A DNA stretch of 64,000 nucleotides from Lacinutrix venerupis (lineage in GTDB: Bacteria; Bacteroidota; Bacteroidia; Flavobacteriales; Flavobacteriaceae). The notes beneath the pieces were generated by a model that saw nothing but the letters and a program-made list of their open reading frames with translations, was not told the origin of the DNA and did not search any database. Location of the stretch: the NCBI RefSeq assembly GCF_003663945.1, contig NZ_RCCH01000001.1:496001-560000 (forward strand), read 5' to 3'. Below are positions 8,119 through 57,999 of the stretch, piece by piece (within the stretch, counting starts at the first letter, position 1; each line of letters opens with the position of its first letter). Position numbers and translations under genes: made by a program.

Positions 8119-8299
8119 AAAAAAAAAGCCTACACTAATTTTGGTTTTGTATAAACTCCTTAAAAACATGTTTAGGGCTAACAAGCTGATCAAGTATCTG
8201 CCCAAATGGTTTCCCATTAGCAGCACGCTTTTACAACTTTAACTCACCCTTTTTAAAGAATTAACTGTTGAGTTTATCAAAAAAATAATTAATGTAGGC
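8119..8299 (-). ncRNA. ssrS: 6S-RNA-like structured RNA between zapA and rny
   Basis: The gap between zapA and rny encodes, on the minus strand, an RNA of about 180 bases with the shape of 6S RNA. A 13-pair closing stem joins 8287-8299 to 8128-8140 with one G-U pair, and nine T follow directly, so the closing stem could double as part of a terminator. Inside it a second stem pairs gagtttat at 8270-8277 with ataaactc at 8151-8158. Further in are a CTTTAAAAA/TTTTTAAG helix, an AGGGT/GCCCT helix and an apical hairpin AATGG-GAAA-CCATT with a GNRA loop. The long rod, large internal loops and length fit 6S RNA, which binds the housekeeping RNA polymerase holoenzyme. The link to zapA recalls the E. 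coli ssrS neighbourhood. The structure is seen; the 6S identity is inferred. Confidence 0.78.
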
Positions 8300-47463: not shown

Positions 47464-49803
47464 TTAACCTATAATTTCTAATTTAGCAAAACGCAATAAT
47501 AGTTTTTTTAAGCCTCCAAATTCAAAATCAATTTCAGCTTTAACGTCAGTTCCTTTTCCTTCAATTTTTAAAACCTCTCCTCTACCAAATTTTAAGTGTT
47601 TTACTCTATTACCTACAGTAAGTTCACCGTCAAATAAATTTGCATCTGCTGGAGCCTCAACCTCTGAAGCTTTTTTCATTTTTTTAGGAGCGCTAATTTC
47701 GAAGTTTACTGGTTCTTTCTTTTTTGCCACTTTTTTCTGGAATTTTGGTTGTACTGCTTTTTTAAATCTTATTTTATTTGGAGGAACATCCCCAAAAATA
47801 TCTGCCGATAGCATCGGGTTTATTCGTCTTTCTTCTATTGGAGTAACAATGTCTAAAAACTGGTCGTCTATCTCTTCAATAAAACGACTTGGTTCTGAGT
47901 CTACTAGCTTTCCCCAACGGTATCTGGATAGTGCATATGTTAAGTATGCTTTCTTTTCTGCTCTGGTCAAAGCTACGTAAAATAATCGTCTTTCTTCTTC
48001 AAGTTCGCTTCTTGTATTCATACTCATAGCACTTGGGAATAAGTCTTCTTCTAAGCCCACAATAAATACATGATTGAATTCCAAACCTTTAGAAGAGTGA
48101 ATGGTCATTAAAGCTACGTGATTAGGATCGCCTTTATCTCCATCTAAATCTGTAGCTAAAGCAACATCTTCTAGAAATTCTGCCAAACCGTCTTTAGAAT
48201 CTGCAATTTCCATTTGTCCTTCAACAAAATCCTTAATACCATTTAAGAGCTCTTCTACATTTTCTAATCTTAAAACTCCTTCTGGTGTGCCATCTTTATT
48301 AAATTCTCTAATTAAACCACTGGTTTTTGTAACATGTTCGGCTAAATCAAAAGCGTTTGCTGTTTGATTCATAACCTGATAGCTTTCTATTAAGGTTACA
48401 AAATCTCTTAGTTTGTTTTTTATACCATTATTTAAATTAATATTTACGGTATCGATTTCTTTTAATAATCCAAAAATAGTTTTTCCGGTACTATTTGCTG
48501 CTACAACTAATTTATCTATTGTTGTTTGGCCAATACCTCTAGCTGGATAATTTATAACACGTTTTAATGCTTCTTCATCGGCAGTATTTAGCACCAATCT
48601 TAAATAAGCTGTAACGTCTTTAATTTCTTTTCTTTGGTAAAAAGACAAACCTCCATAAATACGGTAAGGAATATTACGTTTACGTAAAGCATCTTCCATT
48701 GCTCGAGACTGAGAATTGGTACGGTATAAAATTGCAAAATCACTATTAGGTAATTGATTATTCATCTTTTCTTCCCAAATGGTGCTTGCTACATAACGCC
48801 CTTCGTCTCCATCTGTTAAAGATCGATGAACTATAACTTTGTCTCCTTCATCGTTTGCTGTCCAAACAATTTTATCTAGTTTGGTTTTATTATGTTCTAT
48901 AACAGAATTAGCTGCACCTACAATATTTTTTGTAGAACGGTAGTTTTGTTCTAAACGGTACATTTTAACGTTATCGTAGTCCTTTTGGAAGTTTAGAATG
49001 TTATTTATGTTTGCTCCACGAAAGGCGTAAATACTTTGCGCATCGTCACCAACCACACAAATATTTTGAAATCTATCTGCTAAAGCTCTTACTATAAGAT
49101 ATTGAGAGTGGTTTGTATCTTGATACTCATCAACTAAAATGTACTTGAATTTGTGTTGGTATTTAGCTAAAACTTCTGGAAAACGTGTTAAAAGCTCATT
49201 GGTTCTTAATAGTAAATCATCAAAATCCATTGCTCCTGCTTTAAAGCAACGGTCTACATAATTAGCATAAATCTCTCCCATTTTTGGTCTGCGTGCCATA
49301 GCATCTGCTTCCATTAATTCTGGGTTTTTAAAGTATGCTTTTACAGTAATTAAACTATTTTTATATGAAGAAATCCTACTATAAACCTGCTTTGTTTTAT
49401 AAACGTCTTTATCTAAGCCCATTTCTTTAATAATGGAGCCTAATAGTTTTTGAGAATCTTGAGTGTCGTAAATTGTAAAATTACTTGGAAAACCTAAATG
49501 ATGTCCTTCGAAACGTAAAATTTTTGCAAATACAGAGTGAAATGTTCCCATCCACAGGTTTTTAGCTTCACCATCTCCAACTATATCGGCAATTCTGCCT
49601 TTCATTTCTTTGGCAGCTTTATTAGTAAATGTTAATGCAAGAATGTTAAACGAATCTACACCTTGATTCATTAAATATGCAATTCTATAAGTTAACACTC
49701 TTGTTTTTCCAGAACCTGCACCAGCGATAATAATCATTGGTCCATCTTTTTGAACTGTAGGTTCGTATTGTGCTTCGTTTAACTGACTTAAATATTTTTC
49801 CAA
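47464..49803 (-). CDS. UvrD/PcrA-type 3'-5' DNA helicase
   Basis: Superfamily 1A helicase of 779 residues for nucleotide-excision and mismatch repair or clearing RecA and replication blocks. Motif I GAGSGKTRVL (residues about 28-37), Ia ALTFTNKAAKEM, II ILVDEYQDTN, III VVGDDAQSIYAFRGA, IV LEQNYRS, V VALMTIHSSKGLEF, VI FYVALTRAEK are all present. The C-terminus (NRVKHLKFGRGEVLKIEG) is the PcrA/UvrD Tudor-like RNAP-binding domain. It begins at TTG (49803) after a clear AGGAG four bases upstream; no ATG fits the conserved N-terminus. Confidence 0.95.
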   Translation of the reverse strand: MEKYLSQLNEAQYEPTVQKDGPMIIIAGAGSGKTRVLTYRIAYLMNQGVDSFNILALTFTNKAAKEMKGRIADIVGDGEAKNLWMGTFHSVFAKILRFEGHHLGFPSNFTIYDTQDSQKLLGSIIKEMGLDKDVYKTKQVYSRISSYKNSLITVKAYFKNPELMEADAMARRPKMGEIYANYVDRCFKAGAMDFDDLLLRTNELLTRFPEVLAKYQHKFKYILVDEYQDTNHSQYLIVRALADRFQNICVVGDDAQSIYAFRGANINNILNFQKDYDNVKMYRLEQNYRSTKNIVGAANSVIEHNKTKLDKIVWTANDEGDKVIVHRSLTDGDEGRYVASTIWEEKMNNQLPNSDFAILYRTNSQSRAMEDALRKRNIPYRIYGGLSFYQRKEIKDVTAYLRLVLNTADEEALKRVINYPARGIGQTTIDKLVVAANSTGKTIFGLLKEIDTVNINLNNGIKNKLRDFVTLIESYQVMNQTANAFDLAEHVTKTSGLIREFNKDGTPEGVLRLENVEELLNGIKDFVEGQMEIADSKDGLAEFLEDVALATDLDGDKGDPNHVALMTIHSSKGLEFNHVFIVGLEEDLFPSAMSMNTRSELEEERRLFYVALTRAEKKAYLTYALSRYRWGKLVDSEPSRFIEEIDDQFLDIVTPIEERRINPMLSADIFGDVPPNKIRFKKAVQPKFQKKVAKKKEPVNFEISAPKKMKKASEVEAPADANLFDGELTVGNRVKHLKFGRGEVLKIEGKGTDVKAEIDFEFGGLKKLLLRFAKLEIIG

Positions 49804-50154
49804 ACTCCTGCTTTTTTAATTGGTAAAAATAAGAATTGTTGTGCGGTTTACTTCTTGGTTTTATTAATAATTATAAACAATTGACAATTATTTTATGTTA
49901 CATTTTTATTAACTATAACTTAAATAATTGCTTTAAAGAAAGGATTAGAAAAACGAATAGTACTTATTAGAAGTGATAAACTAAAATATTCTAGAAAAAT
50001 GACAATAACTTTTTTAAATACGTATATGCAAATTTTACAAATACCAAGAAAGAAACCACTATAAATATTGGTTGTAAATTAATATAAAAAAAACCTCTTA
50101 CACTAATAACATGCAAGCTTTAAAAGATTGTGAGTATTTGGGTGGTTATAAAGC
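49804..50154. other. 351-base gap between the helicase and the LytTR operon
   Basis: I see no gene. The strand behind the response regulator shows an imperfect hairpin (aagctttaaa at 50115 onward against tataaagctt at 50147-50156) and, on the minus strand, gtgtaagaggtttttttta (about 50086-50104), which together may end the operon transcript. A 15-codon frame at 50111-50158 is not credible as a gene. The rest is very AT-rich with no recognisable RNA, repeat or promoter, apart from the TTG start region of uvrD. Confidence 0.4.
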
Positions 50155-50895
50155 TTAGCTAAAAAGCTTTAAAAAGGCTTTTTTATTGGTTCTTGAAATT
50201 GGCACACGTTGGTTGTTTTCTAATATAAGGTAGCCTTCATTTTCAAAATGACGCACTTTTTCTAAATTTACTATATGCGATTTGTGGCATTTAAAAAATC
50301 TGGTGTTTAAAAGTTTTTCAAACTTACCTAAATTATAAGAGCTAGTAATGGTTTTGTTATTTATTAAATGAATTTTAGTATAACCACCATAACCTTCTAA
50401 ATGCATAACTTCTTCTTGAGGGATAAAAGACATTCCTTTTTGTGTAGGTACTATAATTTTATTGTTAGCAGATATAGTATTGGTTAATACGCTTACCAAC
50501 TTATGATTGCTTTCTAAATCATTTTTAAGCTTTATTGCCTGTTTTGCTTTATTTGTTGCCACAATTAAATCATCATCATCTATTGGTTTTAATACATAAT
50601 CTATTACACTTTGTTTAAAAGCTTCAATTGCATATTCACTATAAGCTGTTACAAAAATAACTTGAAAATCTATTTCGTTTAATTGAGCTAATAAATCAAA
50701 ACCATTAATTCTAGGCATTTCTATATCTAAAAACACAAGATCTGGCTGTTTTATCTTTAAAGCTTTAATTGCTTCTTCTGGTTTTTGGTAGGTGTTTTGT
50801 ACTTCGATTTCTGGAAATAGTTTACCTAACTTTTGTTTTAAACCTTTTAGGTTTGAAATTTCGTCATCGATTAATATTGCTGTTATTGGTTTCAT
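50155..50895 (-). CDS. LytTR-family response regulator
   Basis: A 246-residue DNA-binding regulator. Receiver domain about 1-120 with the acidic pair Asp10/Asp11 (LIDDE), the phosphorylated Asp57 (LVFLDIEMPR), Thr in FVTAYSEYA and Lys in YVLKPID. The LytTR DNA-binding domain lies at about 145-246 (YGGYTKIHLINNKTI, FFKCHKSHIVNLEKV, VPISRTNKKAF). It lies four bases after the sensor kinase, its cognate partner. Target genes are unknown; lipoprotein genes in the same operon are obvious candidates for autoregulation. Last gene of the eight-gene unit. Confidence 0.93.
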   Translation of the reverse strand: MKPITAILIDDEISNLKGLKQKLGKLFPEIEVQNTYQKPEEAIKALKIKQPDLVFLDIEMPRINGFDLLAQLNEIDFQVIFVTAYSEYAIEAFKQSVIDYVLKPIDDDDLIVATNKAKQAIKLKNDLESNHKLVSVLTNTISANNKIIVPTQKGMSFIPQEEVMHLEGYGGYTKIHLINNKTITSSYNLGKFEKLLNTRFFKCHKSHIVNLEKVRHFENEGYLILENNQRVPISRTNKKAFLKLFS

Positions 50896-50899
50896 TGCA

Positions 50900-53758
50900 T
50901 TAAATCTGGTTGATAATAAACGTAGAAATATTTCCTTTGTCTTTTAAATCTGAATGTAATTCTTTTTCTGAATACGTAATAGTCCATTGCCCAGATTTGT
51001 TTAAAAACCTAAGTCTATCTTCTAATACATGTGAAGATTTAACTTTTCTATTTCCTTTTTTTGTGGTGTTTACAAAGCCTACTCCATCATCTATTATTTC
51101 TACTTTAAAACTTTTATTATCTATGCATTTAAAATTAATTGTGACTTCACCATTGTTTTCTTTATTAAAAATACCATGATTTATAGCATTTTCAACAATG
51201 GGCTGTAACAGCATGGTTGGAAGTTTATTTAATTTTCTATCTAAATTAGCATCAATATTTATAGTGTATTCAAACTTATCTTTAAAACGTAATTTTTCAA
51301 TATCTAGATAGTTTTTTAGTAGTTTAACTTCATCTTCTATACTAATATTAGTTTCTTTAGTCCACTCGAAAAATTGCCTTATTAATTTTGAAAACTTTAC
51401 CAAATAAGTTTCTGATGCTTCCATTTGGTTATTATTTATATAATATTGAATGGCAGCTAAGGAGTTGAATACAAAGTGCGGATTCATTTGAGAGCGTAAA
51501 GCTTTCAATTGTAACTCTGATAAGCGTTTGTCTTCAATAATTTTTTGGTTTTTTTTGAATTGTGTACGTTTAACAAAATATCTAGAAATGTACACAACCA
51601 ATAAGATACTTAATAAAACAGCTAGCAATCTTACCCATAGCATTTGGTACCAAAGCGGTTTTATTTTAAAGCTTAATGATTTTTCAATTTCTTGAGACTT
51701 TATATAAAAGGTATAATCTCCTGGTTGTAAATCGTTAAAATTAAAATTTTTAAATTTTGAACTTGTCCATTGTTTTTGAACAGGCTCTAATTTATACTCA
51801 TAAGAGAAATTAGTATCATCTTCAGAGAAATCTATTTTAGATACTGTAAAATTAACATTATTATTTTCTACATATTTAAAGGTACTATTTGTAGATGTAA
51901 TTACTTTATCATTATAATTTGCTTTATCAATGTAAACATCTAATAACTGCGGAATACTTACTTCGTCTTTAGGTAAAATTGCAATCCCGTTATTAGTACC
52001 TACTATAAGATTATTATTGTCTACAAAAATTGAAGTAATGTGGTTGGTTGGCAAACCATCGCTTTTTGTAAAACGTTTTTCAAATTGAAAGATTTCATTG
52101 TTTTTTATAAATTTTAAAACACCAGAATTTGTTGCTAACCAAAGCGCTTTATTTTCTATATAAGCATCTTCAACAATTAAATATTCTGTAGGTTGTAAAG
52201 GACAAATAGTTTGCAAATCTGTAATATATGCTCCAAAACCATCGGTATTTATTAACAAGTGTTTTGCATCAAGTACTTTTATATTTAATATAGATTTTGT
52301 AAACTTATTGTTTTCTAAAATTACTGGAGTTAAAGCATTCGATTTTAATTCTTTTAAACCACTTGTTGTAGCAATTAACAACCTATTGTTAAACGTAATA
52401 ATATCGTTACAACCTTTTTGTGTAAACTCTTTTTCTATATGTAATGTCTCTGGATCTAAGCTATTAATACCAAAAGCAAAATTGCCATATATTTTATTAT
52501 TAAAATAAACAAATTTACGTCCAAGCTCATTAGCATAATTAGATGCATTAAAAACTTTTTCAAGATTTAACTCTGTATATTTATCTTGAGCGTTACTTTT
52601 AACAATTGCGTTTTTAAAAGCATAATAATTGGTATTGGTTTCATTAATATAACTTGCTTCGTATATGTAATCTTCTTTGTTTACTAGTGAGTTAAATGTT
52701 TTGGTGTTGCTATTATATTTAAAAAATCCTTTTTTATAGACACCAACTATTAAATTATTATTTATAACATTAAAGCTTTGGACTTTTTGATTACTAAATT
52801 TATAAACTACCTCTTTTTTTCTAGAAGATAATTTATAAACACCATTGTTAAATGTTGCCAACCAAATATTGTTTAACTTATCTATAAAACCAAAATGAGA
52901 TTGAATGTGTTCTGGGAAATAAAACGGATTAACAATTTTAAAATCTGAATTTAATTTAGCAACAAATCCAGATCCAGATATTTGTAAATCATCACCTACT
53001 AAATTTATTCTAGGGTATTTTATTTCAGTTTTAGCTAAAACATCTTTAAACTTAAATTGTCTAAATGATTTAGTGTTTAAATTAAGTATGGAATAATTTT
53101 TATTGGTTGCCCAAAAAAACAAACTATCATTTAATTGACCTCTTGCACCTACTCTACCATAAATATCTTTGGTTTTAATGCTTTTAATTTTTTTTAAATC
53201 TTTGGTATACAATGTTACCCTTTGGTCTAGTGTAAAAGCTAAATATGCTACATGATTTTGTCTTATTTTTATCCAATCTTGATTTGTTTTTTTACTATTA
53301 AGGTTAATTTGACTTATCCATTTATCATCTTTTAAAAAAAATGATTTTTTAGTTTCAGTAGGATATATAGAATCTCCTACTTGAGAAGAATATATAGGAT
53401 TAATTATACTTTCTTTATTACTATTATAAAACGAAAAAACAGAATCTTTTTTAATATATCCAAGTTTTGTAGATTTAGATAAGTACCATATGTTTCCGTT
53501 TGGTGCTGTAAAAGCGTCCCAAACATCGTTATTAGGTAATCCATTTTTAGTAGTAAATGTTTTTAACTGGGCACCATTAAACCTAGTCATACCTTTATCT
53601 GTTAAAAACCAAATAAAACCTTTAGCATCTTGTACAATAGTATACACGTGGTTACTTGGTAAACCATCTTGAGTCGTATAATTGGTGTATTGTTGTGAAA
53701 AAGAAAAACTCCATATCAAAAAGAAGAATAATATAATATGGAGTTTTTTATGTTTCAA
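50900..53758 (-). CDS. LytS-type sensor kinase with periplasmic beta-propeller
   Basis: A 952-residue hybrid-like sensor. Order: signal peptide (cut after FSFSQ), about 600 residues of two-component-propeller type repeats (YTTQDGLPSNHVYTIVQDA, GFIWFLTDKGMTRFNG, GNIWYLSKSTKLGYIK, TNSGVLKFIKNNE), a Y_Y_Y domain at about 610-690 (FSYEYKLEPVQKQWTSSKFK), one transmembrane helix at about 692-712, and a His_kinase module with MNPHFVFNSLAA at about 755-766, a degenerate ATPase with NAINHGIF and DDGVGF. It probably binds a periplasmic signal and phosphorylates the LytTR regulator directly downstream. Start codon TTG (no ATG before the signal peptide). Confidence 0.92.
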   Translation of the reverse strand: MKHKKLHIILFFFLIWSFSFSQQYTNYTTQDGLPSNHVYTIVQDAKGFIWFLTDKGMTRFNGAQLKTFTTKNGLPNNDVWDAFTAPNGNIWYLSKSTKLGYIKKDSVFSFYNSNKESIINPIYSSQVGDSIYPTETKKSFFLKDDKWISQINLNSKKTNQDWIKIRQNHVAYLAFTLDQRVTLYTKDLKKIKSIKTKDIYGRVGARGQLNDSLFFWATNKNYSILNLNTKSFRQFKFKDVLAKTEIKYPRINLVGDDLQISGSGFVAKLNSDFKIVNPFYFPEHIQSHFGFIDKLNNIWLATFNNGVYKLSSRKKEVVYKFSNQKVQSFNVINNNLIVGVYKKGFFKYNSNTKTFNSLVNKEDYIYEASYINETNTNYYAFKNAIVKSNAQDKYTELNLEKVFNASNYANELGRKFVYFNNKIYGNFAFGINSLDPETLHIEKEFTQKGCNDIITFNNRLLIATTSGLKELKSNALTPVILENNKFTKSILNIKVLDAKHLLINTDGFGAYITDLQTICPLQPTEYLIVEDAYIENKALWLATNSGVLKFIKNNEIFQFEKRFTKSDGLPTNHITSIFVDNNNLIVGTNNGIAILPKDEVSIPQLLDVYIDKANYNDKVITSTNSTFKYVENNNVNFTVSKIDFSEDDTNFSYEYKLEPVQKQWTSSKFKNFNFNDLQPGDYTFYIKSQEIEKSLSFKIKPLWYQMLWVRLLAVLLSILLVVYISRYFVKRTQFKKNQKIIEDKRLSELQLKALRSQMNPHFVFNSLAAIQYYINNNQMEASETYLVKFSKLIRQFFEWTKETNISIEDEVKLLKNYLDIEKLRFKDKFEYTINIDANLDRKLNKLPTMLLQPIVENAINHGIFNKENNGEVTINFKCIDNKSFKVEIIDDGVGFVNTTKKGNRKVKSSHVLEDRLRFLNKSGQWTITYSEKELHSDLKDKGNISTFIINQI

Positions 53759-53806
53759 TAGTTTTTATTTAAGTGATGATTACAAAAGTAATAGTTTTAG
53801 AGTTTT

Positions 53807-54772
53807 TTAAAACTCATCTACTAAACCATTGCAATTATTATCAATTCCATCAGCAATTTCTGGAGCTCCAAAATATACATTTGAATCATTATCATCACAA
53901 TCTGTTCTATTTGTTGAGCTTCCTGCAAAATTTACTGTTGTTCCTAAATCATTAGAATCTCCAAAACCATCACCATCAGCATCTTGATAATAATATACAA
54001 CATCTGTATTACCATCACAATTGTTATCCAAACCATCTGTAGTGTTTTCAGTAGCAAAAGGATGCATGCTTGCATCTCCATCATAACAATCTAAACTATT
54101 AAATACATATCCAGTTGGTATTGTCATTTGAGCTTCATAATTACAAGGTGCTGGACAACTAGCAATTAAAGGATTATTAATATCTCCATAGCCATCTCCA
54201 TCATTATCTGCATAAAATGTATAGTCTTTACTTGACGATGCGTCACAATCTTCGTCTACATTATTATCTGGTATTTCAGTTGCTCCTGGATTTATATAAG
54301 CATCATTATCGTCACAGTCTGTGTTATCTGTTACTACTCCATTAGTAGTATTGTTTGGATCTCCATAACCATCTCCATCATTATCTGCATATAGTGTAGG
54401 ACATGTAACATCTCCACTACAATCTGGATCTTCGCAATCTGTAAAACCATCTCCATCATTATCCACTCCATCATTGCAAATTTCTACGCAATTTTCATCA
54501 ACTTGTCCATCGCAATTATTATCAATTCCGTCTCCACAAATTTCATTTGCTCCTGGATATGTAATAGCATCTGTATCATCACAATCACCAGAAACTAAAA
54601 CATAACCAGCTGGTTGTACACAAGCGTTTTGTGTTACAGCTGGATTACCAAATCCATCTACATCTGCATCCTGATACCATGCTTGTTCTGTACAAGAAGC
54701 ATCATCATCGCTTCCACAAGCTACTACTAATACTAGTATAAATAGTATACTTAATTTTAAAATTGTTTTCAT
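53807..54772 (-). CDS. Surface lipoprotein with MopE-like calcium/metal-binding repeats
   Basis: A 321-residue lipoprotein: ACGSDDDAS, with lipid on Cys19 and an acidic stretch directly after it, as in the Bacteroidota lipoprotein export signal, so surface display is likely. Four MopE-type modules follow, each with a D-rich loop such as DADVDGFGNP, DNDGDGYGDP, DNDGDGYGDI or DADGDGFGDS and later DGIDNNCDGQVDE-like endings with CDD. One NDGVDNDGDGFTDCEDPDC unit looks like a thrombospondin type-3 repeat. These loops are typical calcium or other metal sites. Last lipoprotein gene before the sensor kinase (48-base gap). Confidence 0.88.
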   Translation of the reverse strand: MKTILKLSILFILVLVVACGSDDDASCTEQAWYQDADVDGFGNPAVTQNACVQPAGYVLVSGDCDDTDAITYPGANEICGDGIDNNCDGQVDENCVEICNDGVDNDGDGFTDCEDPDCSGDVTCPTLYADNDGDGYGDPNNTTNGVVTDNTDCDDNDAYINPGATEIPDNNVDEDCDASSSKDYTFYADNDGDGYGDINNPLIASCPAPCNYEAQMTIPTGYVFNSLDCYDGDASMHPFATENTTDGLDNNCDGNTDVVYYYQDADGDGFGDSNDLGTTVNFAGSSTNRTDCDDNDSNVYFGAPEIADGIDNNCNGLVDEF

Positions 54773-54784
54773 AATATATAGTTA

Positions 54785-55336
54785 TTAATAATTTTGATCT
54801 GCATCACGTTGCACTCTACATTCACCTGAAATAGTTCTGGTAGTCCCATTATCATCAAATGTTCCTGAAAAAGTAAACTCTAAATAATCACCTATATTTG
54901 AAGGGATTGCAGAAGTAACTGTTGCAACTATTGGATGTGTTGTAAAATCACCAGATAAAACAAATAAGTTTGAAGAGGTACTTTCAGCAAAATAGAATTT
55001 TTCAGTCGGAGAACTATCTAATGCTAATCCCCAATTATAAGTTGTTGCAGGCATAAAAACACCATTACTATCAAAAGAAAAACTTGCAGCAATCCTTCTT
55101 AAATCACCACTTGGTTGTTGTCCTGATGCATTTATTTCAAATCTATCTATAATCGTAGAAGTATCTGTTTCTAAATGACCTTCTACTTCATAATCAAATA
55201 TACGTTCTACACCATCTATAGTGTATTTATAATATTCGTTTGTATTACCTGTTGTAGTGGATCCATCGTCATCATTACTACATGCTACAATAAATACTAA
55301 CGTTAGTAGTAAGCTAATTTTTAATACTATTTTCAT
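54785..55336 (-). CDS. Surface lipoprotein of unknown function
   Basis: A 183-residue lipoprotein: VACSNDDDGS, lipid on Cys19 followed by an acidic run. The signal peptide is similar to that of the downstream MopE-like protein (LSLLLTLVFIVAC against LSILFILVLVVAC), which suggests the two genes share an ancestral 5' end. The mature part is beta-rich (YKYTIDGVERIFDYEV, FTFSGTFDDNGTTRTISGE), resembling the small secreted beta-sandwich proteins common in flavobacteria. No family can be named with confidence. It lies 12 bases ahead of the MopE gene and four behind the next one. Confidence 0.75.
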   Translation of the reverse strand: MKIVLKISLLLTLVFIVACSNDDDGSTTTGNTNEYYKYTIDGVERIFDYEVEGHLETDTSTIIDRFEINASGQQPSGDLRRIAASFSFDSNGVFMPATTYNWGLALDSSPTEKFYFAESTSSNLFVLSGDFTTHPIVATVTSAIPSNIGDYLEFTFSGTFDDNGTTRTISGECRVQRDADQNY

Positions 55337-55340
55337 GTTA

Positions 55341-55658
55341 TTATTTTTTGTTTTCGTTATAAAATTTTAATGCTTCAGAAAACTTAAAACTAAAAAAAGC
55401 GTCTTTACCTTCGTAATGGATTACTTTTACTCCATCTACTACATCATTTAAAAAAATGATTTCATGAAAGTCTTTTTCTTGAAGTTTTCTGCCATTTATT
55501 AAATAATATCTTACTATTTCTGTTTTCTCTGCTTTACTTAATGGCTTTGAAGTTTCGGTTTTAGTAGTTTTTTCTAATGCTTGAGGTTTCTTTTCATCTT
55601 TACAATTAAAAACTATTAAACCTAAACAAATCACTAAATACTTAACATATGTTTTCAT
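55341..55658 (-). CDS. Small lipoprotein of unknown function
   Basis: A 105-residue lipoprotein (LIVFNCKDEKKPQ; lipid on Cys19, then Lys-Asp-Glu). Unlike its neighbours it has KDE rather than an Asn/Asp run after the Cys, close to the K-(D/E)-rich form of the export signal. The rest is Lys/Thr/Glu-rich at first (TTKTETSKPLSKAEKTEI), then has a small alpha/beta part (VVDGVKVIHYEGKDAFFSFK). No known domain recognised. It lies four bases ahead of the previous entry in the same transcript. Confidence 0.7.
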   Translation of the reverse strand: MKTYVKYLVICLGLIVFNCKDEKKPQALEKTTKTETSKPLSKAEKTEIVRYYLINGRKLQEKDFHEIIFLNDVVDGVKVIHYEGKDAFFSFKFSEALKFYNENKK

Positions 55659-55669
55659 AGTTATCTTTT

Positions 55670-56116
55670 TTATAGAACCTCATCAATTATTACACAAAAC
55701 TCTACCTCTACACTTCCATTTACAACGTCTAATCTTACCTCATCACCTACTGCTGTTCCTGCACGTTGACAAGTTACTGTAACAGTTTGCTCTGTACCAT
55801 TATCAATAGTAATCAAACCAGTTCCTGTATCGTTTAAAGCAATGACGTTAGTAGTAAAAAACAGTGTTGTTGAACCTGTATACGAAACAATTTCTATTCC
55901 TGGTGCTCCATTAGGTCCATTACTTGCATTTGGAAAATATTGTGTATTTAATTCTGATTCTGGAATTAAAGTTTGATCGTTATTATTGCTATCTAAATAC
56001 GAAAAACCTTGATAGTTACATTGGGTTTCATTAGTTGCATCGTTATTTACATCGTCGTCATTATTACAAGATGTAAAAAGAACTAAAGCAACTATTATAT
56101 TTCTAAATACTTTCAT
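55670..56116 (-). CDS. Surface lipoprotein, paralogue of the first operon gene
   Basis: A 148-residue lipoprotein (LFTSCNNDDDVN; lipid on Cys17). The mature start CNYQGFSYLDSNNNDQTLIP resembles CNYQGMSYLDTSDNTQILIP of the gene at 56809-57231 so closely that the two are paralogues. Both continue with a polar beta-rich domain and a final VEFCVIIDEVL/IEYCVIIDVYH strand, and both have two Cys suited to one disulfide (CNYQG and the terminal FCVII/YCVII). Function unknown; no enzyme motif. It is one base from the preceding gene, so strongly coupled. Confidence 0.78.
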   Translation of the reverse strand: MKVFRNIIVALVLFTSCNNDDDVNNDATNETQCNYQGFSYLDSNNNDQTLIPESELNTQYFPNASNGPNGAPGIEIVSYTGSTTLFFTTNVIALNDTGTGLITIDNGTEQTVTVTCQRAGTAVGDEVRLDVVNGSVEVEFCVIIDEVL

Positions 56117-56117
56117 T

Positions 56118-56780
56118 TTAATCTAAAATTACTCCAAAGGTTCCTTCGTAATGTCCTGTAATGACTTCTCCATTTTGATTCATAAAAGTATAATCGACAT
56201 CAATTGTACTGGCAGAAGGATTATTAGCGTCTAAATCTATTGCATTAATTGTTATACTTGGACCTTGCGTACCTGGAGTATTAAAAACGCCTACGTTTTC
56301 GTCTCCTGTTCCATACTCAACACCATTAATAAAATAAGAAGGATTTAAACCATTTATTTGACCGTTTTCTATTATTACAGAGTCGTTTATACTAGAAACC
56401 ACATAAGTATTTCCAGCAGAAGGACCTGCATTTGCTAAACTTGGATTATCTACAACTTCTACATTTAAAAACACCCAGTTAGTAGTATTTAAAGAGAATA
56501 AAAAATCATCATTTAAACCATTTACATTTGCTGGATCATTATCAAACATACGTCCATTAGAGAAGAAAAAACTATAGTTATCTGGATAACCATCACCACC
56601 AATATTAGGATCGTCATCATCTTCATCTATTTCAAAATAAGCATTTGGTGTATCGTAAAATACATTGTTATGCGTAAATCCATCTGTTGGAGTTACTGGG
56701 TCTGTTTGTGCATCATCGTTACTATCACAACTAAAAACTGTAATAATTAAAAGAAATAAATATGCTTTTGTTGTTTTCAT
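56118..56780 (-). CDS. Surface lipoprotein of unknown function
   Basis: A 220-residue lipoprotein (TVFSCDSNDDAQ; lipid on Cys18, acidic stretch after it). Mature part beta-rich with many Asn, Asp and Gly, including an acidic loop EIDEDDDDPNIGGDGYPD that could bind calcium. It ends IDVDYTFMNQNGEVITGHYE, like lipocalin- or transthyretin-type secreted sandwiches. Not recognised. Second gene of the operon: 28 bases after the first and one base before the next. Confidence 0.75.
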   Translation of the reverse strand: MKTTKAYLFLLIITVFSCDSNDDAQTDPVTPTDGFTHNNVFYDTPNAYFEIDEDDDDPNIGGDGYPDNYSFFFSNGRMFDNDPANVNGLNDDFLFSLNTTNWVFLNVEVVDNPSLANAGPSAGNTYVVSSINDSVIIENGQINGLNPSYFINGVEYGTGDENVGVFNTPGTQGPSITINAIDLDANNPSASTIDVDYTFMNQNGEVITGHYEGTFGVILD

Positions 56781-56808
56781 AGTGCTTTACATTTTTTTAA
56801 TTATTTTA

Positions 56809-57231
56809 TTAGTGATATACATCTATAATAACGCAATACTCTATTTCAAAACCACTGTGAGATACATCGCATCTAATTTCACCTCCAAGTACATTATCAT
56901 CTCTCTGTACAGTAATAGTAACTGGATATTGTGTACCATTATAAATAAATTCGTAAGTATTGGTTCCTGGAGAATATACTAATGTTAAAAAATCTCCTCC
57001 TTGTGTATTTCCATAAATCTCCCATTCTGGTCCATTAGAAGAGCTCGCAAAATAATCGGTAGTTAAATCGGCTTCAGGAATCAAAATTTGTGTATTATCT
57101 GATGTATCTAGGTAAGACATACCTTGATAATTGCATACATCTACATTTGGAGCATCATCATCATCATTATTGCAATTGAATAATGTTAAAACTACTAATA
57201 CGACTAATGCTTGTTTAAATAAGGTTTTCAT
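56809..57231 (-). CDS. Surface lipoprotein, first gene of the lipoprotein/LytTR operon
   Basis: A 140-residue lipoprotein (LTLFNCNNDDDDAP; lipid on Cys20, followed by four Asp in a run). Paralogue of the gene at 55670-56116 (shared CNYQGxSYLD start, final YCVIID strand). Beta-rich, with two Cys that may form a disulfide. No family recognised. It opens the likely eight-gene transcript that runs to the response regulator at 50155; a TATTTTTG -7 box lies about 100 bases upstream. Confidence 0.78.
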   Translation of the reverse strand: MKTLFKQALVVLVVLTLFNCNNDDDDAPNVDVCNYQGMSYLDTSDNTQILIPEADLTTDYFASSSNGPEWEIYGNTQGGDFLTLVYSPGTNTYEFIYNGTQYPVTITVQRDDNVLGGEIRCDVSHSGFEIEYCVIIDVYH

Positions 57232-57330
57232 TTTTAAAAATTTTGAGGTTAAATTATGGTCTAATAATAAATCGCCAAGAATAACTTTACATTAATCTTG
57301 ACGATTTATGTTAAAAGATTAATAGCAATC

Positions 57331-57338
57331 CAAAAATA
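57331..57338 (-). promoter_or_regulatory. -7 box upstream of the lipoprotein/LytTR operon
   Basis: On the minus strand TATTTTTG, a full TAnnTTTG match, 100 bases ahead of the first lipoprotein start codon. No TTG at 17-23 bases further upstream, so it may need an activator such as the operon's own LytTR regulator. That is inference. Confidence 0.4.
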
Positions 57339-57480
57339 GTAATGTGTTTGTGAGTAAAAAGCTAACATTTTATAAACCTACATTTACATTATATAAAAAA
57401 CACGTTTCATTCAATTATCGGTTTTCTTGTACAATAATTTAAAACACATTAAGTTTGCTTAATAACTTAATAACACTTTA

Positions 57481-57999
57481 ATGGAAGATCAATTATTAAA
57501 CCTTGTAATGTATGCTGTACCTTCACTAATTGTAGGTTCAGTAGCATTTTTATTTTTTAGAGAACATATTCAAAATGAAGATGATAGGCGTAAATTTATT
57601 ATCCATAAACAGTTACAAAAAGAATCGCTACCTCAACGTTTACAGGCTTACGAAAGGCTTTCTCTTTTTTTAGAACGTATTAATCCAAACCGATTGATTT
57701 TAAGAATAAATCCTGGGGCTTCAAATAAAAACGATTATGAAATGTTATTAATAAATAATATTGAACAGGAGTTTAACCATAATTTAGCCCAACAAATATA
57801 TGTTAGCGATAATTGTTGGAGTGTTATAAATGCTTCAAAAAGCGCTACTGTTCAACTTATTAGAAAAATAAGCATGAGTGATAAAATTGACTCGGCCGAA
57901 AAGCTTAGAGAGGCAATTATTACTGAAATGATGGATAAAGCTGCACCTAGTAACGCCGGACTTTCTTACATTAAAAAAGAAGTTAGTGAGCTATGGTAA
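57481..57999 (+). CDS. Membrane-anchored conserved flavobacterial protein (DUF7935-like)
   Basis: A 172-residue protein with one N-terminal membrane helix (about 8-26, VMYAVPSLIVGSVAFLFF) and a cytoplasmic, mostly helical domain (RLQAYERLSLFLERINPNRLI, LRINPG, HNLAQQIYVSDNCWSVINAS). Such proteins are conserved in Bacteroidota without known role, and the layout resembles that of DUF7935, which I give only as a likely label. It is divergent from the lipoprotein operon and stands alone, ended by a strong terminator. Confidence 0.78.
   Translation: MEDQLLNLVMYAVPSLIVGSVAFLFFREHIQNEDDRRKFIIHKQLQKESLPQRLQAYERLSLFLERINPNRLILRINPGASNKNDYEMLLINNIEQEFNHNLAQQIYVSDNCWSVINASKSATVQLIRKISMSDKIDSAEKLREAIITEMMDKAAPSNAGLSYIKKEVSELW

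Follow-up and report, generated by a model that had tools for sequence, protein, structure and literature searches.

The window analysed here, a stretch of 64,000 nucleotides (nt) from Lacinutrix venerupis (contig NZ_RCCH01000001.1, positions 496,001 to 560,000), carries on its minus strand a run of eight genes for six predicted lipoproteins (LP1 to LP6), a LytS-type sensor kinase (HK) and a LytTR response regulator (RR). A first-pass annotation made from the letters alone had read the run as one eight-gene operon. All eight open reading frames (ORFs) are confirmed, following one another at gaps of 28, 1, 11, 4, 12, 48 and 4 bases, within the 1 to 48 bases described. The single operon fares less well: HK has a TAnnTTTG box of its own in front of it and a U-rich hairpin right after its start codon. 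As judged from sequence, we regard the locus as a real, conserved and locus-specific regulatory system. Its kind would be two-component control of surface proteins, and the surprising part is a conserved hairpin in the codons of the kinase.

All coordinates are those of the window, and all features of the locus lie on the minus strand. LP1 (56809–57231, 140 amino acids (aa), CNNDDDD) and LP3 (55670–56116, 148 aa, CNNDDD) are paralogues, 40% identical in their family alignment. LP2 (56118–56780, 220 aa, CDSNDD) lies between them, and they are followed by LP4 (55341–55658, 105 aa, CKDE), which has homologues at 12 loci in 9 distinct genomes, LP5 (54785–55336, 183 aa, CSNDDD) and LP6 (53807–54772, 321 aa, CGSDDD). 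Each has a lipobox-like cysteine followed by the motif that the annotation had pointed out, an acid-rich run in five (NNDDDD, DSNDD, NNDDD, SNDDD or GSDDD) and KDE in the sixth. LP6 contains four MopE-type stretches (Cu-binding_MopE, PF11617, E 4.7e-34), putative metal-binding repeats; a Pfam scan of LP1 to LP5 returned no family above the cut-off.

HK (50900–53758, 952 aa, TTG start) combines Reg_prop and Y_Y_Y sensor domains with His_kinase (PF06580, 4e-22), and RR (50155–50895, 246 aa) combines Response_reg (PF00072, 5.5e-21) with LytTR (PF04397, 1.8e-18), which bears out the propeller-type LytS kinase and LytTR regulator first proposed. The closest solved structures to the sensor part are 3v9f and 4a2l, and the NPHFVFNS box of HK is invariant across 6 aligned sequences. 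HK stops after its ATPase region, and the LytTR regulator is encoded separately. None of the eight genes has a Pfam match to SusC, SusD or an enzyme domain, and no SusC/SusD-type domain was found in 10 neighbouring proteins scanned from relatives. PADLOC gave a single weak match on the locus, covering the first 63 residues of RR.

The structure models of LP1 and LP2 are mainly beta, with predicted local distance difference test (pLDDT) scores of 77.8 and 80.8. Foldseek returned zero matches at E≤0.001 for either model. VIA-align picked out small beta-barrel-like chains for both, with a best Z of 8.0 for LP1 (root-mean-square deviation (rmsd) 2.8, 84 aligned) and 6.1 for LP2 (rmsd 4.1, 96 aligned); these model-based matches are too weak for a family name. 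Both proteins are thus predicted to be barrel-like domains rich in beta structure, and neither has a clear relative. A comparison of LP1 with phage records gave no match.

A conserved pair beside a changing gene set

A search among named records returned 80 HK loci, many of them full-length Flavobacteriaceae orthologues; 47 were analysed, with partial matches and most of the more distant ones left out. HK could be called in 46 of these (L091 has no usable HK call), and RR follows directly in 43 of the 46. A contig end truncates the locus in two of the remaining three, but not in L066. Some records appear under two ids (L024=L043, L025=L046, L026=L045, L027=L050, L029=L055), and L121 lies within L172. 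At the level of genomes, HK matches at E≤1e-80 occur in 8 of 80, the window's own among them, and RR orthologues of at least 66% identity in 7 of the 16 genomes tested, all within those 8.

Loss of the gene order in relatives had been named beforehand as grounds for abandoning the idea of one system. Instead, the order is found again, with genes gained or lost, in Lacinutrix, Olleya, Bizionia, Winogradskyella, Algibacter, Oceanihabitans and Lutibacter. The succession LP1, LP2, LP3, LP4, LP5, MopE-type lipoprotein is retained, again with losses and additions, in Olleya (L037, L041), Bizionia (L047) and the congener G002 (L023). Additions include a gene like that for prolipoprotein diacylglyceryl transferase (Lgt), frequently adjoining the MopE lipoprotein, an LVIVD lipoprotein in L028 and a lipoprotein of about 584 aa downstream of RR. 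In Aequorivita and some other lineages a single protein of about 580 aa fills the lipoprotein slot, and the slot proteins scanned (L029 and L054) both carry a type IX sorting tail (Por_Secre_tail). In Oceanihabitans (L036) three type IX-type proteins stand ahead of the lipoproteins. Two close relatives, G009 and G011, whose DUF7935 proteins are 95–96% identical, have an empty cassette site. Together with the dedicated LytTR-type operator that heads the set, the recurring order upholds the proposal that the lipoproteins and the pair belong together.

The added Lgt-like gene encodes 266 aa and lies at or near the head of the cassette, often just 5' of the MopE-type lipoprotein. Examples are L023 11862–12659 (−) and L052 4345–5142 (+), the two for which the Lgt domain was verified, and the heads of L037, L041, L044, L047, L062 and L083. 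In G002 it is extra to the housekeeping Lgt.

The acid-rich lipoprotein starts were counted with a crude lipobox rule. At least two acidic residues follow the lipobox cysteine in 6 of 6 locus lipoproteins, and at least three in 5 of 6, compared with 1 of 5 outside the locus in the same window. Across the orthologue loci, at least three are found in 45 of 98 cassette lipoproteins and 16 of 70 others. Such starts are enriched in the cassette, yet not unique to it.

An operator and promoter at the head of the lipoprotein genes

Upstream of LP1 lies a predicted RR site (57380–57421), a direct repeat of TGAATGAA (57406–57413) and TAATGTAA (57385–57392) set 21 bp apart. Allowing at most 3 mismatches in 16, a TGAATGAA-like pair at spacing 21 is present in 15 of 35 regions upstream of the HK-containing gene run, against at most 4 regions for any other spacing from 9 to 40. 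By comparison, among 26 regions upstream of DUF7935, of which 24 belong to genomes lacking an HK match, only that of G003 has such a pair; that of G001 has a decayed operator half where the cassette is absent. Moreover, among 13 same-genus genomes the operator is present in 6 of 6 with HK and RR and intact in 1 of 7 without them, with a decayed half in one more.

A 42-position matrix, trained on 14 sites and controlled on reversed sequence, gave leave-one-out scores of 17.9 to 50.9 for its training sites (30.6 for the window operator) against a control maximum of 15.0. Sites above 15.0 occur at 21 of 46 HK loci. Those outside the training set precede the 584 aa lipoprotein (L027, L041), the three type IX proteins of L036, the first gene of L040, L042, L045, L047, L056, L063 and L172, and also, in L073, a protein of 576 aa and, in L070, the HK gene. 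The other matches are the G001 relic, one inside an ORF in L104 and, in L036, overlapping or reverse-strand echoes of its own sites; the 47 matrix matches in all include doubles from records held under two ids. A strict pattern, composed from known sites, matched with at most 2 mismatches at 12 places in 10 genomes, against 4 for the backwards control. Its single match in the window's own genome is the head of the lipoprotein set, one of six 2-mismatch matches. The six matches with 0–1 mismatch, all in other genomes, fall at five lipoprotein-cassette heads and at the equivalent place in G003. A looser pattern (3 mismatches) was dropped, with 81 matches in the own genome against 116 in the control.

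Pairs of the form TGAGTGAA-N13-TGAGTGAA, with the operator geometry and one letter changed, occur at G005:C38:405624, G005:C35:66958 and G006:C15:229120; these are possibly operators of sister LytTR regulators.

The lipoprotein promoter follows at a nearly fixed distance. Its −7 box, TATTTTTG (57331–57338), lies 75 nt from the operator, and the presumed transcript start, GCTATTAATC (57317–57326), 87 nt. TAnnTTTG is given as the Bacteroidetes −7 consensus in PMC7366714. A −7-like box 74–75 nt from the operator accompanies 20 of 33 listed sites, including those before the 584 aa lipoproteins. GCTATT stands 80–95 nt from the operator at 20 of the 33 (distance 87 in 19, 90 in one) and is missing at 13. 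A sigma-70 promoter scan gave no excess over chance.

Elsewhere, GGTAACA recurs ahead of the 584 aa lipoprotein in L118–L120 and at the cassette heads of L038 and L045, and a TATAA-like stretch follows it after about 17–20 nt. Read by eye, this element looks like the promoter of another sigma factor.

The 5' untranslated region contains a leader hairpin (57267–57309) that, folded with its neighbours, reaches −20.5 kcal/mol (z −5.5). The alignment of 10 heads excludes those nearly identical to others, the L036 copies, L047 and any that lack the hairpin; compensatory changes are seen in 7 of 11 pairs, and 89.8% of cells are paired against 25–53% when the alignment is slid. Covariance searches, with full scoring of about 130 candidates per genome, placed the leader model at seven heads (E≤3.6e-4), that of G003 included, with the next match at 0.0016. 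An antiterminator pairing between GCTATTA and the hairpin region was not seen in this form in 20 leaders (mean z 0.01). Weak leader-model matches (E 0.0016–0.006) also lie in close genomes at G000:C7:160477–160553, G009:C1:1824441–1824517 and G011:C22:77222–77294.

A conserved hairpin in the kinase signal-peptide codons

A second −7-like box, TACTTTTG (53783–53790), stands in front of HK. Of 33 orthologues, 15 have a TAnnTTTG box within 50 nt upstream of the HK start, 13 of them at 29–34 nt before the start codon; among other genes inside runs the figure is 23 of 241.

Behind this box, codons 4–19 of HK, which encode its signal peptide, form a hairpin with a U-rich 3' side (53704–53748). The 15-pair stem with its 15-nt loop reaches −18.2 kcal/mol (z −6.7), and exceeds synonymous recodings of the same peptide at z −5.5. 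Among nearer orthologues, 27 of 32 fold more stably than synonymous recoding allows at p≤0.05, and among farther ones 2 of 16, a split set after seeing the data (29 of 48 together); the same holds for 12 of 150 other ORFs. Compensatory changes affect 9 of 15 pairs across 23 aligned starts (of the 32 near orthologues, nine with different arm spacing being left out); 90.1% of cells pair, against 39–53% when slid, and at least 90% of these starts share the U run that ends the 3' side of the stem.

Searched against 40 genomes, the corresponding covariance model (132 candidates per genome fully scored) gave six matches at E<1e-7, one per genome and each at an HK start, with the next at 0.0019; in the window's own genome nothing but the HK start scores below E 0.02. 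Because the hairpin models were built partly from the genomes searched, only the lack of other strong matches is informative. In L028, L036, L047, L052 and L083 extra HK codons follow the hairpin. They appear to supply a new signal peptide, and the hairpin therefore seems to have been kept for its own sake. Rfam has no family at either hairpin; its weak SAM-II match elsewhere scores 19.6 bits against a cut-off of 44.

Discussion

The genes and their order, the operator with its spacing and both hairpins can be read directly from the DNA. On balance, we favour the view that they form a self-contained surface-display switch, made up of an RR-driven lipoprotein unit and a separately promoted, damped HK–RR unit. 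The propeller of HK would watch the periplasm or the outer surface, and HK would phosphorylate RR. We infer that RR is the protein that binds the pair of direct repeats at spacing 21, which lies 75 nt ahead of the −7 box, and that it activates rather than represses the one promoter from which the lipoprotein set would be made. The lipoproteins, whose starts resemble export signals, would probably be flipped to the cell surface. HK and RR themselves would come mainly from the promoter directly ahead of HK, and the U-rich hairpin in the HK codons would act as a damper, halting much of the transcription that enters from the lipoprotein unit and limiting kinase synthesis, with the outcome that few kinases serve many lipoproteins. 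More tentatively, and with somewhat more doubt than conviction, we propose that the signal-peptide codons of HK double as an RNA attenuator that sets the kinase-to-lipoprotein ratio, and that a mobile-looking module of operator, promoter and leader recruits adjoining surface protein genes.

Several results weigh against this switch. The operator motif was first spotted by eye, partly in regions that were later counted, and the operator counts are not independent because neighbouring species share regions by descent. No site above 15.0 is found at 25 of the 46 HK loci, and one match lies inside an ORF (L104, 16.8). Aequorivita (G039, L055) has HK and a 66% identical RR without a recognisable operator, as does G024 with HK and a 43% identical RR. 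Conversely, G003 (assembly 89% complete) has the operator, the leader and one secreted-protein gene with no HK or RR orthologue; another regulator may therefore read the operator. Acidic lipoprotein starts are frequent outside the cassette also. The U run 3' of the leader hairpin is weak in the window, and a scan of 49800–57500 with a simple intrinsic-terminator rule (loop 3–8, T run) listed neither hairpin. Termination at the HK hairpin is not certain, because its loop of 15 nt is long and it fails this rule. Finally, G.U outnumber A.C mismatches by 13 to 5 (p 0.10), an excess that hints at RNA but is not significant and so does not prove an RNA structure over a DNA palindrome.

In G003 (L172 4341–6321) the gene behind the operator and leader encodes a 598 aa DUF7619 protein.

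The HK hairpin may act otherwise than as a terminator, as a translation brake or as an RNA-processing site that parts lipoprotein mRNA from kinase mRNA. This is possible, though we lean against it. The hairpin starts 10 nt past the first base of the TTG codon, a distance that an initiating ribosome usually covers; a 15-nt loop is, moreover, long for a terminator. Against this stands the conserved U run on the 3' side of the stem, which a translation brake would not need.

A single eight-gene operon transcribed from 57.3 kb, with RR regulating itself and the box and hairpin at HK as AT-rich passengers, we consider unlikely. The gaps of 1–48 bases are what it predicts, the simple scan lists no terminator between LP6 and HK, and the operator stands ahead of the whole run. 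However, the HK box keeps one position in 13 of 33 orthologues, the hairpin covaries and its conservation goes beyond that of the peptide, and an unrelated secreted-protein gene precedes HK in other lineages. With a box before HK and a hairpin behind that box, HK and RR most likely have their own promoter and receive partial read-through only, and two transcription units therefore appear more likely than one.

We think it quite unlikely that the lipoproteins remain at the inner face of the outer membrane, as sensing partners that feed the HK propeller. By its topology the propeller should be periplasmic, and the lipoprotein genes do adjoin HK. The acid-rich starts, however, resemble export signals such as SDDDD of B. 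fragilis and SDDFE of F. johnsoniae, reported in PMC5080379, which makes surface export likely. Moreover, type IX-secreted proteins with Por_Secre_tail fill the equivalent slot in relatives, which argues for an outer-surface role of the lipoproteins. Judged by these motifs, LP1 to LP6 are probably displayed on the cell surface; an adhesive or coat function is a guess.

Least probable is a different LytTR regulator at the operator, with HK and RR serving other genes: the G003 operator without an RR orthologue, the eight further RR-like proteins in the window's own genome and the Aequorivita RR without a recognisable operator would suit it, but the operator accompanies the pair in 6 of 6 same-genus genomes and is intact in 1 of 7 without it.

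The switch that we favour resembles several known systems and differs from each. LytS/LytTR systems share the His_kinase (PF06580) sensor, the receiver-LytTR regulator and a direct-repeat operator about two helical turns apart (spacing 21 here). LytTR sites are described in PMC11347149 as pairs of 9-bp direct repeats spaced 10–13 bp, mostly upstream of −35 in activators. Here, by contrast, the sensor is a Reg_prop/Y_Y_Y propeller, the operator is TGAATGAA-N13-TGAATGAA about 75 nt before a −7 box, the predicted targets are neighbouring surface proteins, and a covarying hairpin lies in the kinase codons.

Hybrid two-component systems (HTCS) fuse kinase and AraC-type regulator in one protein. The HTCS/SusCD loci of Bacteroidetes share with our locus a similar propeller/Y_Y_Y sensor and a regulator gene that adjoins the surface proteins under its presumed control. 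They differ in that the regulator here is a separate LytTR protein with no fused AraC-type domain, and that the eight genes lack SusC, SusD or enzyme domains.

The Bacteroidetes lipoprotein export signal, as set out in PMC5080379, likewise places polar residues and an Asp/Glu run just after the lipid cysteine. Here the starts are for the most part Asn-led, the lysine of LP4 stands at +2 and not at +3 as in the C. canimorsus optimum, and export is a motif-based prediction.

Leader attenuators and terminator-type RNA switches also have a U-rich hairpin soon after the promoter; they differ from the present case, in which a second hairpin lies inside kinase signal-peptide codons and neither hairpin has an Rfam match.

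The annotation had known of no described example of this composition. We found none in the titles and abstract openings of the literature matches listed, among which neither the gene set nor the operator or hairpin is described.

To our knowledge, regulators of surface lipoproteins outside sugar-use loci have been little described in Bacteroidota. What we describe is a conserved pair beside a changing set of probable surface lipoproteins in marine flavobacteria related to Lacinutrix. If the reading is right, the HK–RR pair would be a plug-in switch for changing surface coats in these bacteria, and a hairpin in kinase signal-peptide codons would be an unusual means to fix a two-component system's dose. 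Operator, promoter geometry and both RNA elements are predicted to the base, which makes the scheme directly testable.

Flanking features

Between the UvrD helicase gene and RR, the segment 49804–50154 of the window has short matches to a glutamate-synthase-family gene. That gene is present in G009 and G011, and the window's genome has therefore probably lost it here. Farther off, on the minus strand at 8153–8273, lies a 6S-Flavo RNA scoring 98.6 bits against the Rfam gathering score of 85.

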